A DNA stretch of 46,356 nucleotides from Amanita rubescens (lineage: Eukaryota > Basidiomycota > Agaricomycetes > Agaricales > Amanitaceae): the NCBI GenBank assembly GCA_015039365.1, contig WION01000415.1:1-46356 (forward strand), read 5' to 3'. The notes below the pieces were generated by a model that saw only the letters and a program-made list of their open reading frames with translations, was not told the origin of the DNA and searched no databases. Each line of letters begins with the position of its first letter. The first letter of the stretch is position 1. Shown in pieces: positions 29,877 to 34,800 of the stretch. Made by a program: the position numbers and the translations under genes.

Positions 29877-32800
29877 TCAAGTTATGTGTATTTCATCCTG
29901 CCATACAATATGTGCATAAGTAGTCCCTGAATAGTAAATGAAGTACATACCACCAATTGGATAACTTGCTTCTGCAGGAATGCAACCAATTCTGAATGAC
30001 CAAGATGCATAGTTTCAGAAGTAATGATGGTTTTCAGTTTTTCAAAATAGCCTTTATCCTTGCATTGGTCCAATACTTCTTTAATTGCTGGCATAAATGG
30101 CTTTTGAATCCAAAATGATAGTTGGGTGACAACAATGATTGCTTGAAAGTGTTAGCATAAACAGTATGAATGAATGGAATAATTTACCAACTAAGGCTTG
30201 GCAGGTTGTAGGCTGGTCGTAGTTGTGTCAGTTTCTTCATGTAAGATAAAATGGTGACCATACAGTTTTTGCAAATCTGGTGTCTCGATTTGTTTGTTGA
30301 TCTCCAAACCAACAGAAAATTTCATGCTGATTATAAGAAGTTGAAGAACCTCCAGTGCCAGGACTATTGGACCTACAATCTAGCAAGAAGATTGATATCA
30401 CAATTGATAGCTCCCAAGTTACTAGACTTACCTGCAGAGCAAGACACTCATATGGGGAAGAAGGATTAGGTGAGATGAAGTGATATCATACAATCTATGG
30501 GTGATGTTACATTAGACCAAGGAAGGATAAGCTTATGTGCTTACTGGCTATTAAATGTGTATGTAAATCAAGATCATCAAAAAAATTATAATGACACTCA
30601 CTTCCTATTGGGTATAAGAAACCATACCATGTGATAAGTCTGCCTTGCAGAAGAATATCCAGTGTCACTCACTAGCTGTTGATCATAAAAAATATAAATA
30701 TGTGATGATACTGCCAAAAAATGTGTCATGTCACTCACACCCTGTGAGTAATAGGAAAAAATGTCACTAAGCTGATTTTTGGAAATGTTTTCAATATTGC
30801 TCACTTTCTGTTGGCAGCATGAGATACTGTAGCACTGTGAGAAAGTTTGCAATATCACTCACAAGCTGTTCATCAGAAAAAAAGAGAGGTGATGAGATAG
30901 CCTTTGAGAAAGTTTGCAATATAACTCACAAGCTGTTCATCAGAGAAAAAGAGGTGGTGAGAGCCTTTGAGAAATTGTGCAATGTCACTAACTCCCTGTT
31001 AGATCCAGAAAAGGTGATTAGGTTGCCTTATTAAAACTGATATTCATTGTTACTGACATGCTGTTATTAAAAACCATCATATGAGACTTTCAAGAAAATT
31101 GTTCATGTCACTTACTCCCTGTTATTGATAGGAAGGGAATTGATGAGAATGCCCCTTGTAAAGAATATGAAATAACACTCACTTGCTGTGGGCCATAAGG
31201 AAATATTCAATAAACTGCCTTTCCCCAAAATGTAATGTTACTTACAAACTGTTGGTCATAAAATAATATGTTGAGACTGCCTATCACCAAAAATGCCGTA
31301 CCACTCACTCCCTATTGGTTGGATAAAGATGTTATGGGATTATTGTTGAGCATAAACTGCAACATTACTCACAAGCTGTTGGCAAAAGGAAGATGTTATA
31401 AGACAAAGTTCTCAAACAATGTGCAATCTCACTCACTTGCTGTTTATTGCAGGAAATGAGATGAATGAGATGACCTTTCAGAATGACATAGAACATTACT
31501 CACCCACTGGTGATCATGCAAAGGATGTGTTGTTGCTGCCAGCATCAAAAAATGGCCAAAGTCACTCACAGCCTGTGAAAGAAGTGATGAAATCATCCCT
31601 CATGAAAATATAAAATGATACTTACCAACTACAAGTATTGACAATGTGATAAGACTGATAAATGTGCAAAATAGCTCACTCGCTTTGATGAAGAAAAGAT
31701 GTGACATGATCTTCATTAAAACATTGGATATCACTCACAAGCTTTTAATCATGGAAAAAATTGTTACAAGACCATCATTCACAAAAGTGCACAAGTTTCA
31801 CTCACAACCTAAGTTGGTTATAGGATCAGTAGTGATGAGATTGCATTCTGAGAAGGAAATCACTCACTTCCTGTTGGTCATGGGAAAATCTGTCCTAAGA
31901 CCACTGTTTAGATCAATTTGCAACATCACTTACACCCTGTTTGTTATGACAAAAGATATGACAAGAGTGTCTTTCAGAAAAACATGCAATGTTACCCACA
32001 AACTGTTGGTGAAAGGAAAAAAATATGTGAGTGTACCTTACAAAGGAAGTGCAATGTCACTCACTCCCTGTTGGTGATAGAAAGATATGTGCTGAGAAGG
32101 TCATCAGAGTAATTTCCAATACCACACACATCCTGTTGGTCAAATGAAAGATGTGTTAAAGATGCATTCCATAAAAACATGCAATGCCACTCACTTTCTG
32201 TTGGTCATAGAAGGATTGCAACAATTTAACAACTGTGCAGAAATGTCTAATTTCACTTACTTGCTGTTGGTCACATAAAAGATGTGATGAAGCTGCCCTT
32301 CATGAAAATGTGCAGTGTTACTAACTTTCTGTTGGTCATGGAAAGACATGTTTGAATAAGACATTCTTTCATGAAAATGTACAATTTTCTTACTCTCTAT
32401 TGGTAGTTGAAACATGTATCATGAAACTGCTGTCAGAAAATGTGCAGGTGACTGACTAGCTGTTGATCATAAAAATGTCATGGGTTTACCCATCAGAGGG
32501 GATGATCCACACCAGTGACACCACTCACTTCCTGATGACCATAGTAAGTTGTGTTTGAAGAGAAAATCATTGTCGCTCACTTTCTGTGCTGGATATGATT
32601 AGGCCAGCTTTCACGAGAAGTATCACTCACATCCTGTTGATAGAAATCTGATTAGTCATTACTTTGGATATGTGCATGTTGATACTTACTGCCTTTTTAT
32701 GCATGAAGGTTTTATCGGTTTCATTAGAATGACAGGATGAAGGGTATAATCACTCACTTTCTGTTGTTCATGAGGTGACATCTGATGAAATTATTTGCCA

Positions 32801-34800
32801 GATAAAAATATAGTGTCACTAACCCTCTGTCACTTTAATCAGGCCTAAGATACCTCAGAAATATTAGGATACTCATTACCTTCTGTATTCAAGTAGGATA
32901 TGAGGCAATATAAGAAATATGTGGCACCACTCACTCCCTGTTATTTGGATAAGATGTCAATGGAATGTGGCAAGGCAGCTTGAAAATATAGATTTACTCA
33001 CTTTCTGTTGGTTATGTATATGGTTCAGCATGGGATTATCTGAGGAAAATGGAGTGATGCCACTCACTCCCTGTTGATCATAAGACAAGATTGCTGAGCA
33101 TTAACATGGATTATCACTCACAAACTATTTATCATGGGACAAGACCTTAAAGGTATATTGATTGAATTCTACTCACCAACTGTCAATCATACATATCAGA
33201 TACTTTCTTGCAATCTTGCAACAGATACATATATGATGATGACAACTGACATGTATTTCATCAACAGATTTCTAGCATTGTCAACCAGGCTTGCACACAA
33301 AGGAATTGAAGTGCCATTTACATCCTGTTGCACAATTTGTTATTTATTATTTCATATACAATAATGCAAGAAACCTACACTTCTGTCAATCTGTTCCAAA
33401 TCCATCATATGCAACTATTGGCACAATCCATATGCTTACCCAAAAATGTGGAAATTTAACAAAGACTGCAATGATGGCATCATTCCAGTCAAATTTAGAA
33501 ACCAAGATGTGTCTAGGCAAGGTCAATACTTAAAACAAGATTTTAAATGGGCCCTTACTGAAGTGCAGCTTTAGCACAGAGATCAAGGTTATTCATCTGT
33601 GTTGAGATGAACAACTCATGTAAGATGATATCATCAATTGCATCAGCAGTTTGCTGAGTCAATTCAGGGCAATTCTTCTCAAATAGATCCATGTCTATTG
33701 AACACCATTATTTCCAGTCTGGAGGCAGAAATGTTCACTATTCTCACCTTCCAGTCGCACATATGCTTTAGGTGCATATTTGGTATCCAAGATTTTTGGA
33801 AGATAAACACTGCAGAAAACACTTTCAGCATTTTTCCTGGCATATTCCCACTTATCCTCAGTTGCTGTTGTATCAGGCAAGCCAGTATATTCACTGATTA
33901 CTTGACCATCAAACTTGGTGAATACGACCACCAATGGAACTGTATAAAAAAAGCATTTACTAATCAGCACACTATAGGCCTGACCATAGATTTTTTGGGA
34001 TGTGGAAGGCTTGGTTAGTGGGCAAGAAGTGTCAATCAAAGCTGAGAGGCAATTTCCTGCACCAAACCAAATTTGCTAATCATCAGAATGTACCTTTGCC
34101 AGTCCCTTTGTTAAAGAACTCAAGTTCTGTGGCTAGAATGGGTCGAGGACTATCCATGGGTATACAGTACCTATAAGAAGGTTAGTCAGCCAGGTACATA
34201 TTACAAGAGCTAAGGTGGTATACCAGATTGCATGCAGCTGATCTTTTAGCTCAGTTTCTGCAGACCTTTTTTCGATGAACTCCCAAGCAATCTTCAATTC
34301 TTCAATTGCACCAGATTCAAAACCCTGAGAGTCATGAAAAATGAAATTACTGCCTTTGTATGTAATTTGATGCTCAATGTCATGTAGGCCTCTCTGTTAT
34401 CATTGCTGATGAATGTTCATTCATGCATCAATATTTGACTGACCTCCATTGATGGCATTAGATGAGATAAAGACTGTTTTAGCTTTTTGCCTAAGAGAAA
34501 CTCAATAGTCAAAGGATTTGCAAAAATCCAATTTCTCTTACCATCCTTGCCATATATGATGGGTTTTGTTCCCTTTGCCACACCACAAACCTTCTCAAGG
34601 ATGGTTGTTTTGCCAGCATTAGCCCTGCCTATGACAAGGATACGAAAATGTTGGCATTCATATCGCTCTCGGAGCCCTTTGACATATGCTTCTTCTGTAT
34701 CTGATTTGTGTGAGTTAAATTAGTATAGTAGTATTACATTGGGAATGTCAAGAATTCAAGTTGGCATACTTGATGAAACTTTGCTAGCTTTATCTGCCAT
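29877..34800 (-). CDS. P-loop GTPase with a tandem single-codon exon array (60 predicted exons)
   Basis: Member of a mushroom-expanded GTPase family. Ordinary exons 34770-34800, 34444-34700, 34224-34393, 34094-34170, 33748-33939, 33559-33694 and 33440-33512 encode the G domain: GRANAGKTT (G1), FIFHDSQGFESGA (G3), VPLVVVFTKFDGQ (TKxD, G4), then LHELFISTQMNNLDLCAKAA and VFVKFPHFW. Next come exons of 12 nt (33379-33390), 3 nt (33322-33324), 21 nt (33251-33271), 43 single-codon exons (33179 down to 30545), 3 nt (30492-30494), 15 nt (30432-30446) and 3 nt (30378-30380). Then 30264-30326, 30188-30212, 29951-30141 and 29877-29897 encode the C terminus (QALVAIIVVTQLSFWIQK, HSELVAFLQKQVIQLVDEI). All phases fit and the frame stays open to TGA at 29877-29879; total 473 aa. 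The middle is read from splice signals only. The gene is strongly CpG-poor. Confidence 0.8.
30492..33324 (-). repeat. Array of one-codon exons and homologous introns
   Basis: Unit on the minus strand: acceptor (usually CAACAG), three variable bases, donor (usually GTGAGTGACATT), then AT-rich intron. Period 50-72 bp, mostly 63-68. Plus-strand lowest position of each codon and residue: 33177 L, 33122 F, 33068 G, 33002 K, 32935 G, 32880 K, 32824 R, 32758 K, 32690 A, 32631 D, 32581 K, 32529 E, 32457 L, 32394 R, 32326 K, 32261 Q, 32195 K, 32130 D, 32065 G, 32000 F, 31934 G, 31868 E, 31806 V, 31739 L, 31680 R, 31626 L, 31570 A, 31504 W, 31437 Q, 31373 L, 31309 G, 31246 F, 31183 Q, 31116 G, 31058 H, 30993 G, 30930 L, 30863 L, 30805 K, 30739 G, 30673 L, 30602 E, 30545 P; also 33322 D, 30492 I. 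No stop codon occurs. Acceptors at 32690, 31739 and 31680 end in AAG; the others in CAG or TAG. Confidence 0.85.

Follow-up and report, generated by a model that had tools for sequence, protein, structure and literature searches.

The window gene and its one-codon exons

We have analyzed a stretch of 46,356 nt from Amanita rubescens, a mushroom of an ectomycorrhizal genus (contig WION01000415.1, positions 1 to 46,356), which is called here the window. Its minus strand contains a gene for a GTPase-like protein in which most exons consist of a single codon. The gene model runs from 34800 to 29882 and has 59 exons, 46 of them of one codon each. Each of its 58 introns is of the GT-AG type, and the reading frame is unbroken from the ATG at 34800 to the TAA ending at 29882. 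The predicted protein has 467 amino acids: Its N-terminal part is GTPase-like, and a linker leads from there to the C-terminal part. A first-pass annotation of this DNA had placed 45 minus-strand one-codon exons within 33324–30492 and one more at 30379–30377, all in phase 0 and none of them a stop, with the exons before and after the array joined in frame. The model has the same positions and the same unbroken frame. The C terminus does close in frame, as had been proposed, but with TAA instead of TGA, and the upstream exons, estimated at 936 nt, have 921 nt in the model (885 nt through FPHFW, plus 12, 3 and 21 nt).

The exons coding for the GTPase part (34800–34770, 34700–34542, 34490–34444, 34393–34224, 34170–34094, 33939–33748, 33694–33559 and 33512–33440, all on the minus strand, as are those which follow) comprise these 885 nt, end in ...VFVKFPHFW and are placed by frame and GT-AG junctions. 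They have homologs in Amanita and match the MMR_HSR1/Arf entries of Pfam under the cut-offs, in both cases with a query whose flanks were partly wrong. Next comes a 12-nt exon, IDRS (33390–33379), which by inspection corresponds to the VDRG/VGRE exons of paralogs, and then a one-codon exon, GAT (D), at 33324–33322, between the acceptor CAACAG and the donor GTAAAT. A 21-nt exon, KSVDEIH (33271–33251), corresponds by inspection to the KHNEID/KHNEVD which precedes the array in the protein P0026 and in the locus L018, described below.

The main array has 44 one-codon exons (33179–30492), separated by introns of 47–69 nt. In the gene model their first bases are 33179, 33124, 33070, 33004, 32937, 32882, 32826, 32760, 32692, 32633, 32583, 32531, 32459, 32396, 32328, 32263, 32197, 32132, 32067, 32002, 31936, 31870, 31808, 31741, 31682, 31628, 31572, 31506, 31439, 31375, 31311, 31248, 31185, 31118, 31060, 30995, 30932, 30865, 30807, 30741, 30675, 30604, 30547 and 30494; each exon is formed by the base given and the next two lower-numbered bases. 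A 112-nt intron (30491–30380), about twice the usual length, precedes the last one-codon exon, ATT (I), at 30379–30377, which is followed by a 50-nt GTAGGT..CAG intron. The peptide encoded by the one-codon exons is DLFGKGKRKADKELRKQKDGFGEVLRLAWQLGFQGHGLLKGLEPII. The C-terminal part begins with a 63-nt exon, HEIFCWFGDQQTNRDTRFAKT (30326–30264), which by inspection corresponds to PELFSVFGEHSTFFSAT of the protein P0019. It continues with a 25-nt exon, PTTCQALV(A) (30212–30188), matching by inspection P/ATACQVLA in P0019 and P0025, with the same split Ala codon. The last coding exon, IIVVTQLSFWIQKP... to the stop (30141–29882), is uncertain in its final 20 codons or so.

The pattern YAG-NNN-GTRAG, a generic one which fits just part of the 46 units, is found 32 times in the array stretch; in 200 dinucleotide shuffles it averages 0.14 occurrences and never exceeds 2. 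Outside the array, it is found three times on the plus strand of the whole window and once on the remaining minus strand.

An earlier version of our model had GATGTAAATGG... as a single 96-nt exon and 30379 as the opening of a C-terminal exon. Comparison with P0019 and P0026 overturned it, and the first-pass exon coordinates proved right in both places. Some TGA "codons" located 4 nt past true units, as well as an AAT at 32365, were mis-phased matches of a loose pattern. The fifth intron (154 nt) contains, between an AG and a GT, 72 nt which stay in frame (34056–33985, minus strand); this stretch was left out of the model as uncertain; it is a candidate for an optional exon or an intron remnant. 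The 112-nt intron, the only one in the array with double length, is divided into 60 + 52 nt by CTGCAG|GTAAGT at 30432|30431 (minus strand), which may possibly be a zero-length exon, that is, a recursive splice step. When we looked for recursive splice sites, in which an acceptor abuts a donor, CCAACAGGTGAGTGA appeared just once in the genome, and this junction, with a different sequence, was one candidate in the window.

Arrays across the genome

The first-pass annotation was right about the array itself, but not in attributing it to one gene: A family of arrays is found across the genome. In the complete assembly (75.7 Mb, 786 contigs), the motif AACAG-NNN-GTGAGTGA has 2,614 exact matches, and the reversed control has 7. 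When the spacer is varied, exact matches fall from 2,614 to 19 with two bases, 10 with four and 34 with six. The contig C749 accounts for 10 of the 19 two-base matches and three of the 10 four-base ones. At C749:2135–4149 and C13:582039–583224, "exons" of 2 and 4 nt are clustered next to 3-nt ones; these clusters are candidates for decayed arrays, compensating frameshifts or assembly errors.

A query of 240 GTPase residues has at least 330 exon matches in the genome. The best 30 loci represent 26 distinct places, including the window gene, and all 26 have at least six unit-like matches downstream; this is a set of best matches to the window gene and does not represent a random sample. The matrix used for scoring came from the window units, with the codon bases ignored. 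We have collected 633 units in 13 loci. Since 33.8% of the units in this non-random sample match the motif exactly, the 2,614 matches would correspond to roughly 7,700 units in the genome. The few gene models which we inspected do not contain one-codon units. A search for double units in viral and prokaryote contigs gave 3 and 12 stretches, respectively, with no unit chain and at most five scattered motif matches. The window also contains a 126-bp tandem repeat outside the GTPase gene (573–1753, 9.4 copies, about 90% match).

Stop codons are absent from the parsed units. None is found in the 509 units of the first arrays (30.5 expected), nor in the 633 units obtained with two added loci and a chain parser, where column shuffles give 39.0, with a minimum of 24 in 5,000. 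Genome-wide, the motif codon is TAA or TGA once, versus 574 times CAA or CGA (TAG was not searched). Other codons are also scarce. In 473 of the 509 units the codon ends in A or T, and just one unit has C at this position; in the larger set, four of 633 units end in C, and the endings AA, TT, GA and AT account for 522. In this set, strong depletion affects NGT (10 versus 57 expected), GTN (14 versus 54) and NTA (13 versus 81), while NAG is mildly depleted (14 versus 20.6) and AGN is not (22 versus 24.7). We infer that these codons are avoided because they would create competing splice sites: GT would form a donor, and TA followed by the first G of the intron would form a new TAG acceptor.

The window gene has four copies in the genome, with 0 to 2 coding differences from the window in 1,404 nt. 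In the array, one of 138 codon positions is variable, a synonymous change at 30492, compared with 61 of 2,583 intron positions, which also have 14 indels; none of the 180 positions in splice dinucleotides has changed. Four other pairs of paralogs have changes in 6 of 189 codon positions and 279 of 3,419 intron positions (P 0.005), and in none of 240 splice dinucleotide positions. These figures come from 16 paralog comparisons, one of them a self-control and another without output; the window copies, pairs with a gene in common and pairs with hardly any difference were kept out of the pool. In every comparison with output, the splice sites are unchanged. Each codon change seen in these comparisons replaces an amino acid: There is one in L034/L038, while four codons are affected in L023/L031 and five in L023/L037.

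Array peptides in intron-free sequences

Several proteins from JGI contigs of 1–2 kb are long and uninterrupted, although the genes analyzed here have dozens of introns, so these sequences are presumably derived from mRNA. One of them is P0026, with 478 amino acids, from an intron-free contig of 1,486 nt, also presumably of mRNA origin. It belongs to a relative: Among the matches listed in this genome, the stretches with the highest identity (86–90%) are found in the L018 gene. A splice-aware alignment of P0026 with this gene has 61 introns, and most array exons in it have 3 nt. In a stricter run, 37 of the 43 one-codon residues of the array are identical. Against P0026, the array peptide has a score of 189, compared with at most 58 in 500 family-wise shuffles. 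A Gly and a Ser of P0026 fall at two double-length gaps of the L018 array, missed by the unit parser, where inspection of the DNA reveals, in one case, GGG with an acceptor before it and a GC donor after it and, in the other, AGC with one additional base, T, behind it. The GTPase part of L018 (C1:30000–37000) lacks stretches found in P0026 and P0086, and its one-codon exons are still conserved.

Eleven JGI tails were compared with the arrays. They were picked by eye from 24 fetched proteins (23 from JGI, one from ENA), and short-tailed proteins such as P0005 and P0058 were excluded. P0026, P0006, P0019, P0025 and P0057 exceed all 500 family-wise shuffles, and the score of P0010 was reached once in 500. 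In P0099 and P0102, from more distant relatives, the linker which follows the GTPase is rich in E, R, L, H and N; these linkers resemble what similar arrays of other mushrooms would encode. A third protein search (E 0.01) gave just P0026, P0115 (328 amino acids, A. rubescens) and P0024 among 991 candidates. When transcripts were aligned to other paralogs with splicing allowed, a large part of the arrays was skipped, and these alignments were not used as evidence.

The lack of stops in 633 units, the peak of exon length at 3 nt and the coincidence between P0026 and the L018 array peptide bear out the earlier proposal of a polypeptide stretch made one residue per exon. Taken together, these results are best explained by real one-codon exons, and those of this family are very likely to be spliced in frame and translated.

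The units are tandem duplicates, so they might also be considered as a non-coding satellite of 62–65 bp which mimics splice signals, and which is removed whole as a single long intron or not spliced at all. Among the A. rubescens gene models read, P0001, P0003 and P0028, which stop shortly past FPHFW/FPHYW, and P0083, in which a short linker leads to the C terminus, would agree with this idea. However, a satellite of this kind is expected neither to avoid stops in all 633 units nor to keep exon length fixed at 3 nt and splice dinucleotides unchanged in the compared pairs. The array peptide is present in the intron-free sequence of a relative, and for the L018 gene the idea is already contradicted by P0026. 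We regard it as highly improbable. On the other hand, there is a high probability that the window gene belongs to a large family of mushroom GTPase genes with an array-encoded linker, whose introns would be removed singly by the ordinary spliceosome.

Array evolution, product and known systems

Young arrays are much more uniform in their introns than in their codons. In the L054 array (69 units of 65 nt), 3.3% of intron bases differ between units (0.033), and 65% of codon bases (0.652). In L053 (24 units) introns differ by 0.5% and codons by 34%, and L016, with 56-nt units, has the same tendency (codons 0.57 versus introns 0.16). In older arrays, such as that in the window, the introns have diverged and the signals are retained. 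L054 has 836 pairs of units with identical introns: In 145 of them the codon is the same, and in 148, 227 and 316 it differs at one, two and three bases, respectively, so that 543 pairs have two or three differences. L054 also contains a duplication at an offset of 18 units (score 10.5, maximum 7.6 in 300 shuffles), in which 14 of 19 codons are kept. Three of the five codon changes in it affect all three bases (TTT to CGA, TAT to CGA and CGA to TTT), and the adjacent introns have 0–1 change. Such whole-codon changes beside unchanged introns fit the copying of codons between units with identical introns, whereas point mutations in a recent duplicate would not readily produce them. The L054 gene has two copies which are 99.0% identical when best aligned; there are 86 units in one and 85 in the other, and a single CGA unit sets them apart. 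In a third copy, 61 identical codons are followed by the end of the contig. It thus appears that the introns of the repeats are homogenised, while diversity is maintained in the codons, perhaps with a role in recognition.

One 62-nt intron has 352 exact copies in the genome. The listed part of these places, within the GTPase-family survey, is distributed over four contigs, and all but one are in runs. Such copies, and identical introns located beside unrelated codons, may suggest that copies of one mobile intron, an introner, invaded a continuous exon which was already there, at the boundaries of its codons: The codons would be old and the introns new. Fungal introners are known, and lack target-site duplications according to passages of a previous work (PMC9860276). 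Nevertheless, insertion in phase 0 at every codon boundary is unexpected, the narrow choice of codons (the four endings found in 522 of 633 units) is unlike that of an ordinary exon, and the block duplication and the gain or loss of one unit indicate tandem duplication. An introner invasion seems quite unlikely to us.

Tandem duplication of whole units is part of the explanation which we prefer. According to it, the linker which connects the GTPase to the C-terminal part (helical by prediction) would be encoded by tandem units, each formed by an intron of about 50–70 nt and one codon. We infer all of its steps, which are given here in order of falling confidence. First, the array would be spliced and translated, each intron being recognized by intron definition; splicing may be ordered 5' to 3', so that the upstream exon is already longer when the next donor is used. 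Second, arrays would lengthen or shorten by whole units, so that the reading frame cannot break and single residues can be gained, lost or swapped. Third, unequal exchange and gene conversion would keep the introns of young arrays alike while selection keeps the codons diverse, with identical introns as homology arms for codon swaps. Fourth, splicing itself would limit the codons which can be used. Fifth, the product would carry a variable segment, perhaps of the recognition type, on a fold similar to that of dynamins and immunity GTPases.

Since all junctions of the array are in phase 0, a donor can be joined to any of the acceptors that follow it, and every skip stays in frame. The arrays might therefore serve mainly to produce many isoforms by skipping one-codon exons, with no special role in diversification between genes, and the truffle genes discussed below are described as a case of alternative splicing in passages of a review (PMC4986451). 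However, codon diversity inside homogenised arrays suggests that the sequence itself is selected. We consider such a main function rather unlikely, although it may coexist with the explanation given above. We may also tentatively propose, as an extension of that explanation, a writing of codons by cassettes: Single codons would be copied, swapped, added and lost between arrays by means of their identical introns, giving rise to a recombining repertoire for recognition, perhaps multiplied by exon choice.

As for the product, an AlphaFold2 model of P0026 (29 sequences) has a mean pLDDT of 78.9, and almost all array residues (317–359) are below 50, so this region is probably flexible. The best Foldseek matches are GM4951 (E 7.4e-6; an interferon-inducible GTPase), immunity-related GTPases (IRG; Irga6, E 3.1e-5) and a bacterial dynamin-like protein. 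Pfam gives just GTPase matches of the MMR_HSR1/Arf type for the window protein (with the partly wrong flanks) and P0026, below cut-off; no NACHT or ankyrin domains are found by Pfam in either protein, and the fold matches are GTPases of the IRG/dynamin type. P0019 and P0025 are alike in 279 of 292 GTPase positions and 87 of 92 C-terminal positions (about 95%), compared with 34 of 58 in the linker, whose length is 77 in one and 60 in the other. By this alignment the linker is a hypervariable segment. Its variability, the size of the family and the truffle precedent lead us to guess a role in recognition.

Several observations weigh against our explanation. No transcript with the window gene's own array was found among 241 candidates at E 0.01, using a query with partly wrong flanks and the same array peptide except for the first D, so the case of this gene rests on the family and on conservation. 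In its four copies, the difference between codons and introns is not significant by itself (P 0.17; P 0.006 when splice sites are included). That P0026 derives from mRNA is deduced from its being intron-free and located on a short contig, and this sequence is from a relative. Five of the 11 tails (P0072, P0085, P0093, P0099 and P0102) match no array in this genome. The GTPase part of L018 looks damaged; this locus seems to be a recent pseudogene or an assembly error. P0083 reaches the C-terminal part with just a short linker: An array may have been skipped in this model, or else arrays are missing from some paralogs. The fold matches have low TM-scores (0.2–0.5, and about 0.3–0.44 in the comparison with immunity-related GTPases) and about 10% identity, which makes the immune-like reading weak. 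The one-unit difference in length comes from one assembly, and it is the pattern of codons and introns that points to gene conversion.

The presence of many one-codon exons in a gene is not without precedent, in spite of the first-pass suggestion that nothing similar was known to be described: Codon-sized microexons have been reported in truffles, and what differs here is the gene family, the phylum and the arrangement, as far as the review passages go (PMC4986451). In the literature searched, mostly listings with the beginnings of abstracts, we found no report of one-codon exon arrays in mushrooms. As far as these searches show, the apparent novelties are the occurrence in this gene family and in a mushroom, the arrangement of units in tandem with homogenised introns, and the quantity of such units.

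Very short exons can be spliced. Previous works describe a 1-nt exon in Fusarium CYP621A (PMC12940212) and a 3-bp exon in Drosophila homothorax (PMC7392893), as single exons and not in arrays. The micro-exon genes (MEG) of Schistosoma also have runs of short exons, mostly with sizes multiple of three, but in passages of the source the exons are of 6–81 bp (3–81 according to the abstract), mostly 15, the introns reach about 5 kb and the products are secreted (PMC10526429). The window gene does not have this layout: Its array exons have 3 nt, and the introns 47–69 nt, plus one of 112. Fungal introner-like elements are similar in being near-identical introns at many places of the genome, but here they form tandem arrays with one codon per unit. 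In the WD-repeat NLR genes of Podospora (HNWD), as presented in the review passages (PMC4986451), repeats are alike within and between genes, vary in number and are diverse at a few positions. There the repeat is protein, while here 62 of the roughly 65 bases of the repeat are intron and just the variable codon is translated.

Dozens of consecutive 3-nt exons in one gene represent splicing at an extreme. The system makes it possible to test the successive use of a donor and an acceptor three bases apart, the limits set by splicing on codon identity, and the behavior of homogenised repeats with one diverse codon each. The closest comparison is with the NACHT-ANK (nank) genes of truffles (Tuber), which have "multiple codon-sized microexons" according to a review of work from 2012 (PMC4986451). 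In the passages devoted to them, they share with the genes described here an expanded family, a mycorrhizal fungus, multiple codon-sized exons and a diversifying candidate recognition protein; they code for NLR proteins with NACHT and ankyrin domains, and not for a mushroom GTPase (PMC4986451). Near-identical introns and thousands of units are found here, whereas the truffle genes are known to us from those review passages. If both cases are independent, arrays of one-codon exons would have arisen on two occasions, both times in an ectomycorrhizal fungus and in a candidate recognition protein.

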